The position numbers and the translations under genes are program-made. 64,000 nucleotides of DNA from the IMG/VR virus record IMGVR_UViG_3300004807_000018, positions 18,170 to 82,169 of that record. One strand, 5' to 3'. The notes below the pieces were generated by a model that searched no databases, was not told the origin of the DNA, and worked only from the letters and a program-made list of their open reading frames with translations. Position 1 is the first letter of the stretch. Every line of letters begins with the position of its first letter. Shown in pieces: positions 13,847 through 29,264 of this stretch. The stretch comes from a virus.

Positions 13847-15304
13847 TTAGCTCTGCTGTCCGATGTGGACGGCGCGGCTCTGAACGGTCTGTCCACCGCA
13901 GCGGAATCGGAAGTTCCAACCGAGGGCGTTCTTCTGGATCATCGAGCGGTCTTGAGTACCGTAGGTCTCGATGGTCATGCCAACGCGCTGGCAGAAGATG
14001 TACGCATCCTTCGGATCACCGAAAGCGACGACATTGTTTCCTGCGCCGGTGTTGGGCATGAACGGCGAGAAGATCACGTCAAAGCCAAGAAGCTTGTGAA
14101 CGCGCTTGCTTGCCAGACCCTCAGGACCCTGCGATCGAGCCAGACCAAAGATGAGCTGGCCAGAACCGTCAGTGATCTGCGAGAACGTCGCCCAGGCGTT
14201 GATCTTGTTCATCAGCGCCACAGTCGTGTCAGAATCGGTGTACTGCGGAGGCATGCCCTCAACAAGGTTGATAAGGCCTGCAGCCGTGACCGGGTTACCG
14301 CAGTTGACCACTGGGCAGTAGTCGCCCGCGCCGCCCGCGTTGGTCAGAAGTCCGACGGGCTGGTTGATGCCGGTACCCGACACCAGAGCGTTGTCGAGAC
14401 CGAGATCGTAGGCCTGGCCACCGAGCTTGCCGATCACCATCGAAAGAGGAATCTGAGAGTCCTCCAGGAGGTTGCGCGAGCACTCGATGAAGAACTGGCC
14501 GGTGTGGATCTCAACCGTCACGTTGCCGAAGTTCGGGTCAGCCTGACTTGGCGTGGGGCCCTTTTCGCCAATCCACTGGATTCGCGGGCTGTTTGCCACG
14601 TAGATGTCGGCCGTATCCGAGTCGTTGTTGATTCGGGGCCAGATCACCTGGTCAGCCGAGCACGGAACCGTCTCGACATAGCTCATGAGCCGTGTCGGGT
14701 GAGGCTTGCGCTGAATGAGCTGAGCAATGTACTGCGGAGGAACGAAGAAGCCTCCGCCGCTGTCCGCGCCCTCAGAAAGGGTTTTCGCGTCCATCAGGAC
14801 TTGGAAGTCGGCCTTGTCGAGCGCGTCTTGTCCCTTTCGAGCGTAGATCTCGAACGCCCGCATGTAGGTGGGCTCCTGGATTGCCTTCAGGGTTCGGTCG
14901 GAGAGAACCGCACCGTCGCCCTCGATCGGCACCATCTTGCCCGTGATGGGATCGACGCCATAGGTCTCGTGACCGCTCTTGCCTTCCCATGTCGTGCGCT
15001 GGCCCATGGCCTTTTGAGCTGCATTCTGGATGGCTGCAAGTTCTGCCTTAGCAACCGCACCGATCGGCATGAGATTCGCGTTGCCCATAAGTCCCTTTGC
15101 GGACTGCATGCTCTTCTCAAGCTCGATTGCGGACTGAAGGTTGGCCTCAGCCTCCTTGAGTCTTTGGGGATACTCCCTCAGAAGTTTCAACTCGTCGGGG
15201 GACCAATTGCCCTTGGCCTGAAGCGTCTCGCACTCCGACACGATGCCCTCGAAGGCATCACGCTGCGCCTTGATCAGCGCATTCTCTTGATATGCTGTTG
15301 CCAC
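13847..15304 (-). CDS. Major capsid protein, HK97 fold, 485 aa
   Basis: A 485-residue protein of the HK97 capsid family. The first 75 residues are a coiled-coil delta domain (ALIKAQRDAFEGIVSECETL, LKEAEANLQSAIELEKSMQS) that would be removed by the protease encoded upstream. The mature part has typical blocks: GGGFFVPPQYIAQLIQRKPH, SRNLLEDSQIPLSMVIGKLG, LDNALVSGTGINQPVGLLTN, then GLARSQGPEGLASKRVHKLL and a C-terminal P-domain/E-loop region FGDPKDAYIFCQRVGMTIET. Length is ordinary for unprocessed HK97-type subunits. It lies right after the protease gene, as in HK97-like phages. Confidence 0.93.
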   Translation of the reverse strand: MATAYQENALIKAQRDAFEGIVSECETLQAKGNWSPDELKLLREYPQRLKEAEANLQSAIELEKSMQSAKGLMGNANLMPIGAVAKAELAAIQNAAQKAMGQRTTWEGKSGHETYGVDPITGKMVPIEGDGAVLSDRTLKAIQEPTYMRAFEIYARKGQDALDKADFQVLMDAKTLSEGADSGGGFFVPPQYIAQLIQRKPHPTRLMSYVETVPCSADQVIWPRINNDSDTADIYVANSPRIQWIGEKGPTPSQADPNFGNVTVEIHTGQFFIECSRNLLEDSQIPLSMVIGKLGGQAYDLGLDNALVSGTGINQPVGLLTNAGGAGDYCPVVNCGNPVTAAGLINLVEGMPPQYTDSDTTVALMNKINAWATFSQITDGSGQLIFGLARSQGPEGLASKRVHKLLGFDVIFSPFMPNTGAGNNVVAFGDPKDAYIFCQRVGMTIETYGTQDRSMIQKNALGWNFRFRCGGQTVQSRAVHIGQQS

Positions 15305-19320: not shown

Positions 19321-20745
19321 TTAGTCGTCTTGGTCCGCGAGCACTCCCTCGCCTGGACCGGCCAGTTGATTGCCATCGCCGTTGTCGACCATCGCCGTGG
19401 TCGGATCCTTTGGCGCTTCTGCTGCTTGCCGCTGAGTGCCTTCCGCTTGGCCCATGGGGCGCGTTCCCTTTGGCACCTGAATCTGGTCTCCGCCGTCGAC
19501 CTTGCCCATGCCGATCCTTGCGCGTCCCTCGTCGGGGGTAAGGGGAGGCACACCGCAGAGCACTGCGATTTCCTTGAGCAAGATGTCCTTGAGGGCCTCG
19601 ATCTTGGACTCGTCGTACATGATCACTTGGCCGTTTTTGCCAAGCTCAGGAATCAGGTTGCTTGTAAGCTGCCGAGCCCGCCTTCTGGCGTAGGGGATCA
19701 CGAACGAACGGAACGTTAGATCGATCGCGGCTTCGATCGACGCGCGATTGTTGGACTCTCTGAGCCCGGTGCCCATGCCAACCACGACTGGCTGAATGCC
19801 AAACACGGCGCAAAGCCTCTGCTCTGCTTTCCCGGTCGTGTATTCGAGCCCGAGGGACTTGGGATCAAACTGAAGCTGCCCGACCTCAAGCGGAATGTTC
19901 GAGACGAGAACCGACCCTTTGCCGTCGCGCGTGAGCTGCTGTCTAAACCGGTTTTCGAGTTGCTTTGCTTGACCAGGCCCAAACTCGAAGATCGGCTGGA
20001 AGCTGTCTTCCGCGGTGTAGTTGCTCGGATACTGTTTAGGTGTGATCAGCGCCGACGCGACTGCCCCGTTCGCAAGGATCGCCGCCTCGTGGCGGGCTGC
20101 CAGCATGTCCGATGCTAGTTCAGGGATCGCCGCGTAAAGCGGAGACATCCCGTAGACCGGCCAAACCGGATCCATCATGTACCGCATGTGCAGGATGTCG
20201 CACGGAGGAATGCGGTAGTAGCCGTTGACCGTGCTGACCCGGTACTCGGAAACGAACTCACCCGTTCCAGGCCAGGTGTAGGGATAGCACGAGTTTTCAG
20301 GAAGAAACTCAAGTGCGATCACCTTATTGGTGCGCGGATGCCTGTGCTTGTAGGCGTAGCTGTTGCCCCAAGCCATCTCCGTGAACACGGAAAGCTGGCT
20401 TAGGTCCGTGCCGTCGTACCACGGGTTTGGCCGCTCCAGGAGCACCGTGGCCGGATGGTGCTCGATGAGCTCGTACTTGTTGCCGCCAAGATCCCAATAC
20501 GTTTCGAGCGGGATTGCCTCGATCTGCCGAACCGCGAACGAGATGATGGAAAAGACGATCGACGAGTTGTAACGAAGGCTTGTTGCCTCGTTCCAGTCGA
20601 TTCCTCCGGCCAGGGTCTGCTGGTACTGCCCGAAGTAGGTGCCTGCTCCGTAAGAACCGCCCGTAATGCTTGCGACCGTGTTGCCACGCCTTGCCGCACT
20701 GACCAGCGCACTGGCGAACTGGCTGACCCTTTGTCCAATGCTCAT
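19321..20745 (-). CDS. Portal protein, HK97 type, 474 aa
   Basis: A 474-residue HK97-family portal. Recognisable blocks are ATSLRYNSSIVFSIISFAVR near residue 60, then EHHPATVLLERPNPWYDGTD, FTEMAWGNSYAYKHRHPRTN, DILHMRYMMDPVWPVYGMSP, ANGAVASALITPKQYPSNYT, and GLRESNNRASIEAAIDLTFR in the C-terminal stem. The Gly/Gln/Asp-rich tail is normal. It forms the dodecameric DNA channel at the capsid vertex and docks the terminase. Its ATG overlaps the stop of the 51-residue gene that separates it from terminase (ATGA). Confidence 0.93.
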   Translation of the reverse strand: MSIGQRVSQFASALVSAARRGNTVASITGGSYGAGTYFGQYQQTLAGGIDWNEATSLRYNSSIVFSIISFAVRQIEAIPLETYWDLGGNKYELIEHHPATVLLERPNPWYDGTDLSQLSVFTEMAWGNSYAYKHRHPRTNKVIALEFLPENSCYPYTWPGTGEFVSEYRVSTVNGYYRIPPCDILHMRYMMDPVWPVYGMSPLYAAIPELASDMLAARHEAAILANGAVASALITPKQYPSNYTAEDSFQPIFEFGPGQAKQLENRFRQQLTRDGKGSVLVSNIPLEVGQLQFDPKSLGLEYTTGKAEQRLCAVFGIQPVVVGMGTGLRESNNRASIEAAIDLTFRSFVIPYARRRARQLTSNLIPELGKNGQVIMYDESKIEALKDILLKEIAVLCGVPPLTPDEGRARIGMGKVDGGDQIQVPKGTRPMGQAEGTQRQAAEAPKDPTTAMVDNGDGNQLAGPGEGVLADQDD

Positions 20746-20897
20746 TTTTGCGGTTCATCCTGCCCAGCGATAATGCCGTCCACGACCTTGGTGAAAAACC
20801 GGTGTGCGAGAACGGATCCAATGACCACCGGGGCCAGCGCAAGCAGTCCGGCCGCTACGCCAAGCAGCACGCCGAACACGGGGAGAAAAGTTGTCAT
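20742..20897 (-). CDS. Small membrane protein, 51 aa
   Basis: Found as a 52-codon frame coupled at both ends: its ATG overlaps the terminase stop (TGATG) and its TGA overlaps the portal ATG. One hydrophobic helix (LPVFGVLLGVAAGLLALAPV) at the N-terminus is followed by a charged tail (RFFTKVVDGIIAGQDEPQK). Small single-helix proteins of unknown role are seen in phage head operons. A holin or antiholin part is possible but not supported. Confidence 0.65.
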   Translation of the reverse strand: MTTFLPVFGVLLGVAAGLLALAPVVIGSVLAHRFFTKVVDGIIAGQDEPQK

Positions 20898-22342
20898 CAG
20901 TAGACGCCGATCTTCTTGCGGGTTGGTGCGGTGCGCTCAGCCATCGCGTCGGCCAAAGCGTCTACCCAGTCGTCGTTGCGTCCTCTCGGGAACGCGCGAA
21001 GTTCTTCAATGAAGTCTTTCGCGTACTTGGAGTTTAGTAGCTTCAAATTGCCAGCGTTGACCTGCGCTGCTGAGGGCTCGGCTCTTAGTTCCTTGTCTCC
21101 GGAGACAGGAAGCACGACCACGCTGTAACCAGCGTGCAGAGCAAGGAACTTCTGGGCCGACTCCTTGCCCGCTGCGCCTGGATCCTGAGGACCACGGATG
21201 CGCGAAGGCTTTCGAAGGTCGGCTTCCTGCCGGATGCGCCTGTTGCGCTTATTCGGCTCGTGCTGGAAGCGCACGACGTCCGCATAGAAGATCCCGTCTG
21301 AATCCGGCCCGAAAAGCTCGACACCAGCAGTCCAGTCTCCGTCGTCCTCTGTCGCGCCAAGGTCCCACGCAAGGCAGCTTTTAAGCCCTGCGGGTATCGC
21401 CTCGACGATCTCAATCTTGTCCGGATGGAATAGCGATCCTTCTGGAGGAGTCGGGTTGCCCTGGAACAAGGCTTCAAACTTATGGGCGCCCGCGTCCTTG
21501 AGCTGCTGAAGAATGAACTTCTTCGGTTTTTGCTCTGGCCACAGCGGCTCGCCGACTTCTCTGCCGAGAACGTCGCCTTCCACGGCAAGAGCCGGGAAGT
21601 TGATGACGGTCCAGCCGTGATCAGGCTGGGCGGTCAGCCGCCCAATGAGGTCGTCTTCGTGCCAGCGCGTGGCAATAATAACGACGATCGTGTCCGGCCA
21701 GAACCGCTGGACGATTGCGCCGGTGTACCACTCCCAAATGTTCTCCCGAATGGTTTCGGAAGAAGCTTCCTCCCAGCTCTTGATCGGGTCATCAATGATG
21801 ATCAGCCGGAGCCTAGGGATACCGGTAGGAGGCGTTCCAACACCCCGAACCGAGACCGTCCCGCCAGTGGTGAAGGACCACTCATCGAGCGCTGTCGCGT
21901 CCGAAGAGAGAATGCCACGCTCGTGCGCCAGGTCCCTTGCAGGTTTGCTAAGCTGCTTTTCGGCAAACCGCTGGTTGTATCCCGTGAGAAGCGCGTTCTC
22001 GCCCGGGAAGTGCTCGCCCCAGTAGACCGGCAAGCGTCGGGTGATCGTGTCAGACTTGGCGTGCTGCGGAGGCATCGAGAGGATGACCCGCTGCAGACGA
22101 CCCTCGATGATCTCTTGGACTACCTCCTCGCACAGCCAATCAATGTGGTGCGGAACGAGGTAGTAGCTGGGAATCGTGGTGTCGTACCACTTCCTGTAGG
22201 TTGGCCTTGTGCTAGCTTTCGCCAGAACCTTAGCCTGAATCTGCTCCTTGATCGGGATCCCGCGCCGGGCCGCTTCCGCGAGCCTCTCGGACAAAGGAAT
22301 CGCATTGAGGGGAATTCGCGAGCTCCTGCCAAATCGACTCAA
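20897..22342 (-). CDS. terL: Terminase large subunit, 481 aa
   Basis: Motor and nuclease of DNA packaging. The Walker A-like loop PPQHAKSD lies at residues 91-98, Walker B LIIIDDP at 180-186 and the coupling motif ATRWHEDD at 224-231. The C-terminal RNase H-like nuclease begins CLAWDLGATEDDGDWTAGVE and ends with DDWVDALADAM near residue 460. Length is normal for the family. The start ATG lies 113 bases inside the small subunit gene, a larger overlap than elsewhere, but no later ATG fits. Confidence 0.93.
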   Translation of the reverse strand: MSRFGRSSRIPLNAIPLSERLAEAARRGIPIKEQIQAKVLAKASTRPTYRKWYDTTIPSYYLVPHHIDWLCEEVVQEIIEGRLQRVILSMPPQHAKSDTITRRLPVYWGEHFPGENALLTGYNQRFAEKQLSKPARDLAHERGILSSDATALDEWSFTTGGTVSVRGVGTPPTGIPRLRLIIIDDPIKSWEEASSETIRENIWEWYTGAIVQRFWPDTIVVIIATRWHEDDLIGRLTAQPDHGWTVINFPALAVEGDVLGREVGEPLWPEQKPKKFILQQLKDAGAHKFEALFQGNPTPPEGSLFHPDKIEIVEAIPAGLKSCLAWDLGATEDDGDWTAGVELFGPDSDGIFYADVVRFQHEPNKRNRRIRQEADLRKPSRIRGPQDPGAAGKESAQKFLALHAGYSVVVLPVSGDKELRAEPSAAQVNAGNLKLLNSKYAKDFIEELRAFPRGRNDDWVDALADAMAERTAPTRKKIGVY

Positions 22343-22799
22343 TGAGAGCCTCGTCCGTTGTATCGTTTAGGGTCAAATCGACCTTGGAAGTGTTGGAGAA
22401 TTTGCCTCCCACGAGTTGGGCCGCTGTCTCGACTGCATTGAGCAGCAAAGCGTGGTCGCCAGCTTCCCTTGCCTTGTTGGCTATCCCTTGGATTTCGAGA
22501 AGTTGGCCCTCCAGCGTGGCAATCGGGATGATCTTGATGTCCTGCTCAAGGTGCTGCTTTCGCACACGCTCAAACCGCTCAAGGAGCACTTTTCGAGCCC
22601 TGGAACCGTTGACTTGAATGTCGAACTTGATCGCAGGGTTGTCGAAATTGAGGGCGCTGATTGAGGATCGGACTGGAGTCGTCGTTCCAGGGAATACCGA
22701 TTGCCAGGATTCACGAATGTCCTTTGCAGACTGAAACACCGCAAAGGCATCGACGATGTAGTGAAGCTGGCGCGTTGAAAAGCCGGGGCCTTTGCTCAT
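22230..22799 (-). CDS. Terminase small subunit-like protein, 189 aa
   Basis: Positioned directly before the large terminase. The N-terminal helical part (FSTRQLHYIVDAFAVFQSAK) could be the DNA-binding HTH. The central helices, VNGSRARKVLLERFERVRKQ and EGQLLEIQGIANKAREAGDH, follow the pattern of small terminase oligomerisation regions. The last 37 residues overlap the large-subunit gene in another frame. It would bind pac or cos DNA and start packaging. Confidence 0.75.
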   Translation of the reverse strand: MSKGPGFSTRQLHYIVDAFAVFQSAKDIRESWQSVFPGTTTPVRSSISALNFDNPAIKFDIQVNGSRARKVLLERFERVRKQHLEQDIKIIPIATLEGQLLEIQGIANKAREAGDHALLLNAVETAAQLVGGKFSNTSKVDLTLNDTTDEALIESIWQELANSPQCDSFVREARGSGPARDPDQGADSG

Positions 22800-23449
22800 T
22801 AGATCCGCGCACCGCAGCCGCAGTACGCCTCCAGTTCGCCTCGCTTAAATCTGGGAGGCCTATTTAGCGCGTCGCCAAACTCTGCAAGCTGTCCGTTCCA
22901 AGCGCCGTAGCGACGAACGACGCCGGCGAACTCTTCAATATCGTGAGCGCGAGTGCACCAGACAGGGCTACCGTTCCGAAGAACCGGCATGCCGTACTCG
23001 GTCATCTCTTGCCCGCAGTGGTAAAGCTCGTGCTCGATGACTGCGCAGCGGCTCACGATGTCCGCATCGTAGAACCACGGGGCATTAAGCGTAATCAGGA
23101 AGTCCGGCCAGTTGTCCTGCGGATCCCAGGATTCCCTGCGTGCCCAACTCTGGATCAGTTCTGTCGATCGCCCTTGCGACCACTTTGCAACCTGTCCTTG
23201 CGGGACTTCGGCCTGTCCGGCGAGGATCTTTCCCTTTTCTTTCGCGCCATAGCTTGCCCACACGAACAGAATCTTCGCTTCGAGCAAATGCTGGTGGTCT
23301 TCGTTGTAGTACTGCGGGACGTCGCCCGTGATGAACATCTCTTCGGCCCATCTCCGAACTTCGGGGGCAGGCTCGAAGTGAATGCCGGAGCTTAAAACCG
23401 AGGCAGGAATAACCGGGAACTCAAGCTCAGACCCGCTACGCTTAGCCAC
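22799..23449 (-). CDS. Putative phage metallopeptidase, 216 aa
   Basis: Contains HELYHC (HExxH zinc protease motif) in AVIEHELYHCGQEMTEYG, preceded by PDFLITLNAPWFYDADIVSR and an aspartate-rich region. This arrangement matches the 'putative phage metallopeptidase' family often encoded beside terminase. The third ligand may be H or E in ARAHDIEEFAGVVRRYG. The N-terminal third has IPASVLSSGIHFEPAPEVRR. Role unknown in general; host-protein processing or virion maturation have been suggested for the family. It overlaps the small terminase gene by one base. Confidence 0.82.
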   Translation of the reverse strand: MAKRSGSELEFPVIPASVLSSGIHFEPAPEVRRWAEEMFITGDVPQYYNEDHQHLLEAKILFVWASYGAKEKGKILAGQAEVPQGQVAKWSQGRSTELIQSWARRESWDPQDNWPDFLITLNAPWFYDADIVSRCAVIEHELYHCGQEMTEYGMPVLRNGSPVWCTRAHDIEEFAGVVRRYGAWNGQLAEFGDALNRPPRFKRGELEAYCGCGARI

Positions 23450-25468: not shown

Positions 25469-25726
25469 TCAACTGGCCTCGGCTGGAAGACAGATTTCGA
25501 CCTGACCGAAAACTTTGGCCGTGACGGGTTTGTTTTGGTCTTTAAGGAACAAGCAAGGAACCTGCGTCTTTGCCCCTGCAAGCAGGATCAACACTTCGAC
25601 CCACCCTTCTTCGTCGTTTGCAGACTTCGTTATGTGGGTAACGTCTTGGCCGTTGACTTTGACAACGATATCCCTGTGCTTGCCATTCGGAAACTCTGCC
25701 CGTACGGTTTTAGCGTCAATAAACAT
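25469..25726 (-). CDS. Small hypothetical protein, 85 aa
   Basis: ATG 25726 lies two bases after the DNase II stop, inside the repeated junction GGCCAGTTGACCATG. The 85-residue product (MFIDAKTVRAEFPNGKHRDI, VVKVNGQDVTHITKSANDEE, GWVEVLILLAGAKTQVPCLF) is a beta-type protein. The frame extends to 25858 but that part overlaps DNase II. It and the 70-residue neighbour may share a fold. Function unknown. Confidence 0.68.
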   Translation of the reverse strand: MFIDAKTVRAEFPNGKHRDIVVKVNGQDVTHITKSANDEEGWVEVLILLAGAKTQVPCLFLKDQNKPVTAKVFGQVEICLPAEAS

Positions 25727-25728
25727 GG

Positions 25729-26784
25729 TCAACTGGCCTTTTTGTGGCTGGTCTTGATGTGCGCGTGAGTCTCGTGTGTAGACATGCCCGGAGCCGCGAT
25801 CACAAGGCCCATTCTTGAAAGAGCATTGTGCAGACGTGGGTTCTGGAACCCTACGCAACCGCCGCCACGCTTGCGCTGCGAGACCATTCGGTTGATGTCA
25901 CCCACCAAAACCCAGGGGCTTGCAGCGTCGGCCGAGATTGCCCACTTCGCGTGATCGTGCGCTTCAGAGAAGGTGTAGGGCATGCCAACAGGCTGCATGC
26001 TCACGAACTTAATGTCAGCAACGCGGTGAATGCCGTCCTTGTCCGCGGTGGGAGCGATCTCACCACGGATCCACGTCTCGACGTCAAGGTCGACGCCAAG
26101 AGCACTGCCCACGCCGTCGTTCCAGAAATCGCCTCCCCACTCGCGGTTCTTGGCGAACAACTTGAACGGCATGCCGCCCAGCGTGGTGAGATCCAGCACG
26201 TCAAACGCGGGGTGCGGATGAGGCGTGAGATCCTTATGCCAAAGATCAAAAAGCGATTGTGGAACGTCCACGGTCACGGGCTCGACGCCGCCAGCAGAGT
26301 AAACCTGCGGCTCTTGGTGGCACAGCATCTGAGCAGCGATCAGCCCAAGAGTGTCCAGCGAGAGCGAAAGGCACAGGAACGTCTGCCCGTAAATCGGAGT
26401 TGGTGCAGCCTTCCCGCCAGGCACCGGAAACTTAGGCCACGAGTGAACCAGCAGGAACCCGGTCTTGCTCGCCGTATCCCAGCAGATCACGCCCTTGGTG
26501 TGGCCTAGCGATTCGTCGTCCGGGCCACCAGGCGTGCCGTCTGGCTTCTCGTCGTTGTACAGGATAAAGCTGGACCCAGTCACCCCAACTTGCGCGAGTG
26601 TCTCGTGAACTGCGCCCGAACCCTGGTCAAGCCTGTGAGGCGAAGCCGAAGGCACATCGCTTAGCGAGTCTGCATAGGCATACTCGTAGCCGCTGGCTCC
26701 GTTTTCACCCGCTAGCCGAGCGACCTTGTAGGCGAAAAACCAGTCGACAGGCTGGCCAGATTCATTGAGTGCTTGAATAGGCAT
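25729..26784 (-). CDS. DNase II-family endonuclease, 351 aa
   Basis: Matches deoxyribonuclease II. The N-terminus reads LNESGQPVDWFFAYKVAR. The first HxxxK motif lies in LLVHSWPKFP (His114, Lys118), with TPIYGQTFLCLSLS after it. The second lies in AHDHAKWAIS (His278, Lys280), followed by WVLVGDINRMVSQRKRGGGC. DNase II cuts DNA without metal, using this PLD-like HxK pair. No signal peptide is seen, unlike the eukaryotic lysosomal enzymes. It sits among lysis genes and could degrade host DNA late or act on DNA released at lysis. Bacterial homologues are known; I know of few in phages. Confidence 0.85.
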   Translation of the reverse strand: MPIQALNESGQPVDWFFAYKVARLAGENGASGYEYAYADSLSDVPSASPHRLDQGSGAVHETLAQVGVTGSSFILYNDEKPDGTPGGPDDESLGHTKGVICWDTASKTGFLLVHSWPKFPVPGGKAAPTPIYGQTFLCLSLSLDTLGLIAAQMLCHQEPQVYSAGGVEPVTVDVPQSLFDLWHKDLTPHPHPAFDVLDLTTLGGMPFKLFAKNREWGGDFWNDGVGSALGVDLDVETWIRGEIAPTADKDGIHRVADIKFVSMQPVGMPYTFSEAHDHAKWAISADAASPWVLVGDINRMVSQRKRGGGCVGFQNPRLHNALSRMGLVIAAPGMSTHETHAHIKTSHKKAS

Positions 26785-26790
26785 GGCGGT

Positions 26791-26907
26791 TCACAAGGCA
26801 AATCTCGGGAGCAAAACCCAGAACAGAACGAAGCTCGTTACACTGCAGCCGACGAGGAACCCAATTACGAACGTGACCCAAGGGCATTTGAGGTCGAGTC
26901 GGAACAT
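26791..26907 (-). CDS. Single-helix membrane peptide, 38 aa
   Basis: A 38-residue frame (MFRLDLKCPWVTFVIGFLVG, then CSVTSFVLFWVLLPRFAL) that is almost all membrane helix. It overlaps the end of the 109-residue gene and ends seven bases before the DNase II start. Small membrane peptides in this setting can be holin or release proteins. Existence is moderately supported. Confidence 0.5.
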   Translation of the reverse strand: MFRLDLKCPWVTFVIGFLVGCSVTSFVLFWVLLPRFAL

Positions 26908-27194
26908 GGCATCACGGGTTCCAATCCTCTCGCGCACGAGTCGCAGCGCCGACGCCTGTTGTAATACTTGCGGCCACCCCAAACACGGATCTTCTGCTCG
27001 TGTCCGCATTCAAGTTCCTCAAGATCCGGCTCAGGCACGTTCTGGAACCTGGGGCTCACGTTGATGTGCCGCCCGTGCTCGTCTCCGATGATCGATGGGT
27101 TTTCAAGCCAGAACGAAGTGGCCGGGCAGTCAAACGGTCTCGATCCTTCCACTAGCCAGATGTAGGCTGTGACTCGTCGGAGAACTTGAGCCAT
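26865..27194 (-). CDS. Zinc-finger-like protein, 109 aa
   Basis: Start taken at ATG 27194, overlapping the end of the 144-residue membrane gene by 43 bases. The C-terminal half has ELECGHEQKIRVWGGRKYYN and RRRRCDSCARGLEPV, a possible Cys/His zinc site. The N-terminal half contains FWLENPSIIGDEHGRHINVS. No family recognised. Confidence 0.55.
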   Translation of the reverse strand: MAQVLRRVTAYIWLVEGSRPFDCPATSFWLENPSIIGDEHGRHINVSPRFQNVPEPDLEELECGHEQKIRVWGGRKYYNRRRRCDSCARGLEPVMPCSDSTSNALGSRS

Positions 27195-27586
27195 GAGAAA
27201 CCGAGGATCCAGCGCAAAGCCGCAACGCAAAACATGAGCACTGCCGCAAACAAGAAGCCGTCCTTCTCCATCGCGCGTCCTCGTAGGACGCTGAACACGC
27301 AGTAGGTTGCTAGGCCAGCGTAGACGTCGCCGCACAACTCGTTTGCGTCCATTCTGGATTTGCAAAATGTGCAGCCGCCTATCTCGTGCGTGCATCGCTC
27401 TCGCGGAGTGCGGACGCCCCAGATAAGCAGGATGCCGAGGATAAACGCAAAGTTGCACCAGAACGCATCCCAAAACTCGCTGGTTCTACCAACCAGGCTG
27501 AGCACAAATGCATCGAGCTTGGCCGCGACCACGGAGCACACCACAATCACGAGTGCGGTGAGCGCTTGCGCAAGGAGCGTCTTCAT
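27152..27586 (-). CDS. Multi-pass membrane protein, 144 aa
   Basis: A 144-residue protein with about four hydrophobic segments: LLAQALTALVIVVCSVVAAK, FWDAFWCNFAFILGILLIWG, AGLATYCVFSVL and FLFAAVLMFCVAALRWILGF. A short Cys/His loop (THEIGGCTFCKSR) lies between. It begins seven bases after the 63-residue membrane gene. Part of the presumed lysis cassette; holin or holin-partner role possible. Confidence 0.72.
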   Translation of the reverse strand: MKTLLAQALTALVIVVCSVVAAKLDAFVLSLVGRTSEFWDAFWCNFAFILGILLIWGVRTPRERCTHEIGGCTFCKSRMDANELCGDVYAGLATYCVFSVLRGRAMEKDGFLFAAVLMFCVAALRWILGFSWLKFSDESQPTSG

Positions 27587-27592
27587 GGTCTG

Positions 27593-27784
27593 TTAGGCGC
27601 TTGGCCCCTTCCGAAACTGAACGAACGTCGGGATGAGCGTTGAGGCGAACGAGATCATTGCCGTCCAGAACTCAAGGTGCGCCGAGTCAGCTCGCGCCAC
27701 CTGGTGCAGGATCCGGCTCAGGAGCCACACCACAAGCGCGAAAGCAATGCACTTGAGCACGTAGCCAAAGAAGTGCGCGTTCAC
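27593..27784 (-). CDS. Holin candidate, two-helix membrane protein, 63 aa
   Basis: GTG start at 27784, four bases after the previous stop. Two hydrophobic helices (YVLKCIAFALVVWLLSRILH and FWTAMISFASTLIPTFVQFR) with a short loop and a basic C-end (RKGPSA). Size, topology and place next to a lysin gene match class II holins. Not proven. Confidence 0.65.
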   Translation of the reverse strand: MNAHFFGYVLKCIAFALVVWLLSRILHQVARADSAHLEFWTAMISFASTLIPTFVQFRKGPSA

Positions 27785-27787
27785 TGC

Positions 27788-28000
27788 TTACTTCTGCCTT
27801 CCCTCGAGGATTCCGAGGATGCGCTCAACCTTGCCGATAAGGTCCTGAAACAGCGTCGTCGACTCCCGTTGCCCAGATTCCAACCGCTCAATGCGCTCGC
27901 CATGCGATTGCTGTTTTGCCCACATACGGACGAGCACTGCTCCACCCGAAACGGCGCAGCCTGCAAGGAAAACGCTGATGGTTTGTTCTGACTGTGTCAT
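27788..28000 (-). CDS. Holin/XhlA-like membrane-anchored coiled coil, 70 aa
   Basis: ATG 28000 overlaps the stop of the 70-residue gene before it (ATGA). N-terminal helix SVFLAGCAVSGGAVLVRMWA, then a charged amphipathic coiled coil (RIERLESGQRESTTLFQDLI GKV...). This anchored coil resembles holin-associated (XhlA-type) or spanin-like proteins. It is likely part of lysis. Confidence 0.65.
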   Translation of the reverse strand: MTQSEQTISVFLAGCAVSGGAVLVRMWAKQQSHGERIERLESGQRESTTLFQDLIGKVERILGILEGRQK

Positions 28001-28209
28001 GGTTCTGGATCGCAGCAAATTTTGTCAATCGCGACTGGCGGGCGAAGAATCTGGACGGTCTCATGACCGATAAACTTTTGATTGGAGTCGAGCTCACTTT
28101 CGGCAACAATTGCGTACCGGCTAGTTCCGGGCTCGCGAAGCACCGCAAAGCCGAACCCATTGCGCTCGACTGCCGCGCGGGCCTCTCGAATCGCAACGTC
28201 CTTGTCCAT
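27997..28209 (-). CDS. Small hypothetical protein, 70 aa
   Basis: ATG 28209 lies four bases after the lysin stop. The 70-residue product reads MDKDVAIREARAAVERNGFG..., with strands GFAVLREPGTSRYAIVAESE and C-terminal ICCDPEP. It lies between the lysin and the coiled-coil gene. No family recognised. Confidence 0.65.
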   Translation of the reverse strand: MDKDVAIREARAAVERNGFGFAVLREPGTSRYAIVAESELDSNQKFIGHETVQILRPPVAIDKICCDPEP

Positions 28210-28213
28210 GGAC

Positions 28214-28833
28214 TCACGCAGTTGGCAGCCAAAGGCCAGCCTGATTAGGATCGGAAGCAGCCGCACCGACGAGCGTGTCGACGTCGACATCGAGCCCCGC
28301 CACAGTTGTGGTCTGGCCCTGGAGAATGACTTCCTTTGCTTCGGCCTTGGATCCAGACCAGCCCATCGACTGGCTCAGCCAACCATAGTGAGCAATCCCG
28401 GCTCCGATCACCTTGTCCATCACCAGGCCAGAGCCGTAGACGGTCACGAGGTAACCCGCTGAAGACAGCTCGTTGTGAACTGCTTTGAAGTAGGCCAGGA
28501 CAGCAGGCAGATCGGACTGAGGCGCGTCGTAGTCCACCGCAAAGCCAATAGCCTTAGCTTTTGGCAGCTTGAGTGCTTGAGCGACCTTGACGGCTTCCCA
28601 GCGTGGACTTTCCCGATCGCAGCAGACATCTCAGAGGCGGTGCCAGCCACCTCCCACACCAGTCCAACCCAAACGCCAAAGCGAGCGCACTCACGGATCT
28701 CAGAGGCGGTGACCCGTTTGTTCGGAAAGCTCGCAGTGTTGGGGCTGACGTAGCGAATAATGCCGGAGACGCCGAGGCCCTTGAGCTTCGCGACCTTGCC
28801 GATGACTGAATTCGGGGTGTCAATGAGCTTCAT
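28214..28833 (-). pseudogene. Glycoside-hydrolase-like (DUF1906) lysin, broken by a frameshift
   Basis: Two consecutive frames together make a DUF1906/Rv2525c-like protein. The N-part starts at ATG 28833 after GAGG (MKLIDTPNSV..., GVSGIIRYVSPNT..., CARFGVWVGLVWEVAG). The C-part continues in another frame (AIGFAVDYDAPQSD, then YGSGLVMDKVIGAG, ILQGQTTTVAGLDVDVDT, GLWLP). The switch lies at about 28591-28597, where AAGCCGTC should read AAGGCCGTC: one G is missing. With it restored the product is 206 residues and uninterrupted. The family has a TIM-barrel with a catalytic Asp (here in AVDYD) and is used by phages as cell-wall lysin. Real mutation, sequencing error and programmed shift cannot be told apart here. 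Confidence 0.8.
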
Positions 28834-29096
28834 GTGAACCTCGATGCTCGATGCAAATTGGTGCTCTCGGAAACAGGCGGCTGATAGGGCGACCATGTAG
28901 GCCCGTCCGCCTGCTCCAAAGCCACGAGTAATACGCCCGTGGCACACGTCCGACTTTCTTGTTGGCGCTCAGATAGCGTGAGCGTGCCGAAACCATCCTG
29001 TTTTCCCCATGTCAGGCCACGGTTACTCACCGCACGGGGTATTCGAAACGCCCCAGGGATCGTAATGTAGGAATTGATTCTCGCGCCAGGGCTCAC
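28830..29096 (-). CDS. Small hypothetical protein at head of late operon, 88 aa
   Basis: GTG start at 29096 with AAGGGAAA upstream; its TGA overlaps the lysin ATG (ATGA), as in true operon pairs. The product (GARINSYITIPGAFRIPRAV..., CATGVLLVALEQADGPTWSP) has no clear domain. It would be the first gene after the terminator at 29117-29141. Coding status is supported mostly by the coupling. Confidence 0.5.
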   Translation of the reverse strand: MSPGARINSYITIPGAFRIPRAVSNRGLTWGKQDGFGTLTLSERQQESRTCATGVLLVALEQADGPTWSPYQPPVSESTNLHRASRFT

Positions 29097-29187: not shown

Positions 29188-29264
29188 TGGGAGCAGGGGC
29201 TGGATTCGAACCAGCGAATAGATGGTTATGAGCCATCCGTGATGGACCGCTACACGACCCTGCT
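29188..29264 (-). tRNA. tRNA with anticodon CAT (Met, or Ile2 if lysidine-modified)
   Basis: A full cloverleaf on the minus strand. The acceptor is AGCAGGG/CCCTGCT with CCA encoded, the anticodon arm GATGG-CTCATAA-CCATC, and the T arm GCTGG-TTCGAAT-CCAGC. The D stem has one mismatch. It lacks the three G:C pairs of initiator tRNA, so it is an elongator Met or tRNA-Ile2 type. Its phage role may be to supply a rare codon late in infection. Confidence 0.9.

Follow-up and report, generated by a model that had tools for sequence, protein, structure and literature searches.

A bacterial-type DNase II gene in a late-type operon of a tailed bacteriophage and its possible role at lysis

Background

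What might a DNase II be doing in a virus of bacteria? The family is best known from animal lysosomes, occurs also in avipoxviruses, and is rare and thinly scattered in bacteria. Its members are pseudo-dimers that belong mechanistically to the phospholipase-D class and cut DNA through two HxK motifs without a metal ion; a signal peptide is a feature of the animal lysosomal or secreted forms and is not defining for the bacterial ones. The two motifs, variants of HKD, come together in the pseudo-dimer, and the C-terminal one has DHSKW as its core (PMC4148230); the activity is metal-independent, EDTA-resistant, optimal at pH 4.5-5.5, generates 3'-phosphate products and can also cut RNA (PMC4148230, PMC11430429). 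The question is raised by a gene in a 64,000-nucleotide stretch (the window) of an 82,169-base IMG/VR virus record, IMGVR_UViG_3300004807_000018, for which an original prediction had proposed a complete, phage-encoded DNase II-type protein that lacks a signal peptide and sits among lysis genes.

Results and discussion

A complete DNase II encoded by a phage

The gene and its surroundings in the window comprise the following features:

13847..15304, minus strand: major capsid protein (PHROG 10, E=4.9e-39)
19321..20745, minus strand: portal protein (PHROG 2662, E=4.8e-40)
20897..22342, minus strand: terminase large subunit (PHROG 38, E=1.8e-69)
22799..23449, minus strand: phage gene preceding the terminases (PHROG 513, E=4.8e-43; the PHROG label is transposase)
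25469..25726, minus strand: 85-aa protein, its start 2 bases beyond the stop of the DNase II gene
25729..26784, minus strand: DNase II gene (PF03265; sequence and fold match to 5i3e; HxK pairs H95/K97 and H278/K280)
26791..27009, minus strand: small single-span membrane protein, its stop codon 6 bases upstream of the start of the DNase II gene (sequence and hydropathy)
27152..27586, minus strand: 144-aa protein with about three hydrophobic segments (hydropathy)
27593..27784, minus strand: 63-aa small membrane protein, possibly holin-type (hydropathy; no family match)
27788..28018, minus strand: 76-aa protein with one hydrophobic segment and a charged tail, possibly holin-type (hydropathy; no family match)
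28214..28947, minus strand: candidate endolysin of the Rv2525c-like glycoside hydrolase type, broken into two reading frames at about 28540 (matches to halves of PF08924)

The minus strand of 25729-26784 encodes a full-length protein of 351 aa with an ATG start, and the plus-strand reading of the same interval is interrupted by stops. The protein matches the Pfam DNase_II profile PF03265 over positions 3-319 of 326 (E=6.5e-71), and its 239.6 bits against a curated cut-off of 23 exclude a chance match. Its sole significant relative in the Protein Data Bank is the crystallised Burkholderia thailandensis DNase II (5i3e/5unb; phmmer E=6e-93), to which it is about 48% identical over the whole length and with which it shares both HxK motifs. 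The AlphaFold2 model (pLDDT 80, pTM 0.85) likewise recovers 5i3e as the best match in a Foldseek search of the PDB (E=4.9e-36, TM 0.82), followed by PLD-superfamily-like folds with marginal E-values, polyphosphate kinase and tyrosyl-DNA phosphodiesterase among them. Given the concordance of the family profile, the B. thailandensis match and the predicted fold, the identification as a DNase II is strongly supported and we consider it secure; with tailed-phage genes around it, the prediction of a complete, phage-encoded protein holds.

An alignment of 25 homologues was used to locate the active-site residues. The second HxK motif, H278-A-K280 (in DHAKW), lies where it had been predicted and is invariant, as is the first, which had been misplaced: it corresponds to H95-T-K97 (in GHTKG), whose His and Lys are found in all 25 sequences. 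The pair proposed instead, H114/K118, falls in a stretch reading HSWPK, in which the histidine is not invariant and the lysine is replaced in many of the homologues. Loss of the HxK pair in alignment, named beforehand as evidence against the assignment, is thus not observed. The C-terminal GDINR..Q.RGGG block is present as described. Of 127 positions without variation among 14 close bacterial homologues, the phage protein further conserves 100 and differs at 27. That these positions and every HxK residue have been kept on a long branch suggests that the sequence is under constraint.

Hydropathy analysis revealed no signal-like hydrophobic stretch at the N-terminus, in agreement with the predicted lack of a signal peptide. 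The nearest bacterial relatives, including the clade of the B. thailandensis enzyme, are likewise leaderless, so the missing leader is in itself uninformative regarding release at lysis. The B. pseudomallei DNase II is also without a signal peptide (PMC4148230).

Genomic setting

Phage genes of the same contig and strand lie to either side of the DNase II gene, a lysin-like gene upstream and terminase, portal and capsid downstream; DnaB, a PIF1-like helicase, several DNA methylases and an integrase are encoded elsewhere on the record. By its gene content, the record is a genuine tailed-phage genome. In GC content (0.595) and codon use, the DNase II gene lies inside the late-gene range; together with the tight junctions to its neighbors, this indicates that the gene is neither part of a chimera nor a fresh insertion, and its sequence features mark it as a resident of a late-type operon. 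Between the two divergent arms of phage genes lies a minus-strand tRNA-Met (CAT) gene, at window positions 29188-29264.

The placement among lysis genes received moderate support. Upstream, two ORFs that differ in frame (28214-28537 and 28444-28947) correspond to consecutive halves of PF08924, the N-terminal half over profile positions 2-72 (E=1.6e-4) and the C-terminal half over 93-146 (E=1.6e-5), each alone below the curated cut-off. PF08924 is the Rv2525c-like glycoside hydrolase family, which occurs in endolysins. An intact homologue in the Crenobacter oryzisoli locus also matches endolysin PHROGs. The small membrane proteins listed above lie between this candidate lysin and the DNase II and could be holins, although no profile matches them; no profile-confirmed holin or spanin was found near the gene, the frameshifted glycosidase being the only candidate lysis gene recognised. 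It is therefore likely, judging from sequence, that the DNase II gene is placed among lysis genes. The frameshift near 28540 may reflect real inactivation, a programmed shift or an assembly error.

The same phage occurs in a second IMG/VR record, since contig 3300025598_001943 matches it at 99.997% identity across 33 kb; that contig ends inside the portal gene, short of the DNase II region. Two related phages (G005 and G006) share the capsid, and G006 also the portal, at about 46-50%; no cassette comparable to the DNase II/lysis region was seen in either, and no related phage with a DNase II at the same position was found.

Distribution and origin

Among viruses, a tblastn search of 50,697 phage genomes and a search of PHROGs recovered no DNase II, and a fold search of BFVD gave none among the phage entries, fowlpox FPV032 being the only full DNase II match. 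Avipoxviruses are known viral carriers of the family (PMC4148230). Scans of IMG/VR viral contigs with a single protein, two alignments and two DNA patterns, which may miss records close to the genome that holds the window, yielded one further true DNase II; two other apparent viral matches (L057 and L058) were chance. The additional member (3300043447_000768; L031, L037:9956-10948) is of the eukaryotic type and carries a signal-like stretch at its N-terminus; it lies on a contig that looks giant-virus-like by its topoisomerase, ThyX-like and GTPase-like ORFs. FPV032 and this protein resemble the phage enzyme in being virus-encoded, but both belong to eukaryotic viruses; FPV032 is 28% identical in structural alignment and has only 232 aa in the structure library against 351 in the phage protein, and the giant-virus-like form differs from the bacterial-type, leaderless phage protein in its type and its signal-like stretch. 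The phage DNase II is thus a member of a known enzyme family that is unique among phages in the collections searched.

Among bacteria we retrieved 27 DNase II loci. The family was present in one of 398 sampled genomes of the Pseudoduganella phylum, that one being the search centre itself, and in 4 of 296 of the Flavobacterium phylum, again including the search centre. Two trees place the phage protein inside a clade with homologues from Burkholderia, Methylobacter, Flavobacterium and an Acidobacteriota MAG (support 85/99, or 99/97 with the most distant rows omitted), where it forms a separate long branch of about 1.05-1.24 changes per column. The phage enzyme is accordingly of the bacterial type as far as its phylogeny indicates, and the clade names no particular donor. 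In contrast to the chromosomal B. thailandensis gene, the phage copy combines this long branch with a late-type phage operon; native codon use and the long branch suggest either long residence in the phage or fast change.

A possible role at lysis and its alternatives

The enzyme mechanism is well supported by homology, and the role of the gene is what we infer. Our preferred reading, held tentatively at a little under an even chance, is that the DNase II is made late, released at lysis and degrades the DNA of the burst cell, with activity, timing, release and benefit all part of the proposal. Directly supported are the sequence family, the predicted fold, the active-site residues, the phage setting and the gene junctions. 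For a gene placed in a late-type operon whose product has no export signal, release at lysis is the simplest reading. From a late operon between lysis and packaging genes, a leaderless DNase II would be made and would stay in the cytoplasm until the cell bursts and sets it free; it would then degrade host DNA and unpackaged phage DNA while capsids shield the packaged genomes, clearing DNA that would otherwise trap virions or thicken the medium of their release. If its pH optimum is acidic as in animal enzymes, it would be weak in the neutral cytoplasm, and unpackaged phage genomes would be spared before lysis. With such an optimum, which is a trait of the family, little activity might be expected in a neutral lysate. 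The fuller picture of a first known bacteriophage DNase II, metal-independent, built into the lysis programme, destroying released DNA and pH-quiet in the neutral cytoplasm, leans towards the unlikely side when taken as a whole.

Phages commonly use nucleases for host takeover and superinfection exclusion, and the DNase II could instead act inside the infected cell as a weapon that breaks down the host chromosome or the DNA of incoming competitors, nucleotide recycling being a side effect. A leaderless, and so cytoplasmic, enzyme is consistent with this, and the DNA methylases of the phage could in principle mark its own DNA. However, DNase II is sequence non-specific, and we know of no mechanism by which methylation would spare phage DNA from it; moreover, the gene is among late rather than early genes and an acid optimum misfits the cytoplasm. 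This role appears quite unlikely. Recycling is the least favoured of the proposed roles, since DNase II leaves 3'-phosphate ends (PMC4148230), which are poor for direct reuse. A serious rival, albeit an unlikely one, is that the gene is cargo of a temperate phage that helps lysogens, for example by drawing phosphorus from environmental DNA or by loosening biofilms. The integrase on the record and the frequent proximity of bacterial DNase II genes to PF04185 phosphoesterases (10 loci) point in this direction, as do the phage-encoded extracellular DNases of Streptococcus pyogenes (PMC9294136). Against it, a promoter and terminator scan gave no excess over shuffles, the junctions bind the gene to its neighbors in the late-type operon, the protein has no export signal and no prophage relative was found. 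The streptococcal enzymes Spd1, Sda1 and SdaD2 are, like the protein described here, non-specific DNases carried by phages, and have been suggested to liquefy DNA-rich material and so help bacteria and phage particles to disperse (PMC9294136); they differ in belonging to another enzyme family (the Spd1 site being His/Asn/Glu) and in being described as extracellular and virulence-tied, while the phage DNase II has no export signal.

Adjacency to packaging genes would also fit a nuclease carried with the particle and injected into the next cell, and one bacterial DNase II gene lies about 3.5 kb from a contractile-injection-like cluster; yet the phage gene is not near tail or baseplate genes, same-contig linkage to a tail-tube gene occurs in only one of 21 bacterial genomes, and a non-specific DNase co-packaged with the genome would be self-damaging, which makes this highly improbable. 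Also very unlikely is that the acquired enzyme is no longer a nuclease and has either a different role or none at all. The long branch and the 27 changes at otherwise invariant positions would accord with this, and PMC10249883 describes a Trichinella DNase II-like protein without DNase activity, but the protein studied here keeps its full-length fold and every HxK residue, and its gene has native codon use and an unbroken frame.

The phage copy extends the DNase II family to viruses of bacteria, and provides a small, predicted metal-free nuclease whose role at lysis is directly testable. If release at lysis is correct, this would be a virus that adds DNA clean-up to its own exit.

Gene contexts and architectures of bacterial DNase II

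Leaderless DNase IIs are encoded beside PF04185 phosphoesterases in several phyla (L007, L011-L017, L021, L005), possibly constituting an undescribed gene pair. These phosphoesterases also seem to be without export signals, the one in L005 having a long N-terminal extension. In Crenobacter oryzisoli (L018; L055/L056, G703 C23 21477-44977) the DNase II gene is the one near the contractile-injection-like cluster mentioned above, a linkage that, given its rarity, we rejected as a general rule. It also lies beside the intact Rv2525c-like glycosidase; PF08924 glycosidases and DNase II co-occur in two of 13 bacterial genomes, and only here on the same contig. Finally, the DNase IIs of L024, L022 and L004 bear lysine-alanine-rich C-terminal tails that resemble histone H1-like DNA-binding tails, and that of L024 additionally has a large N-terminal extension.
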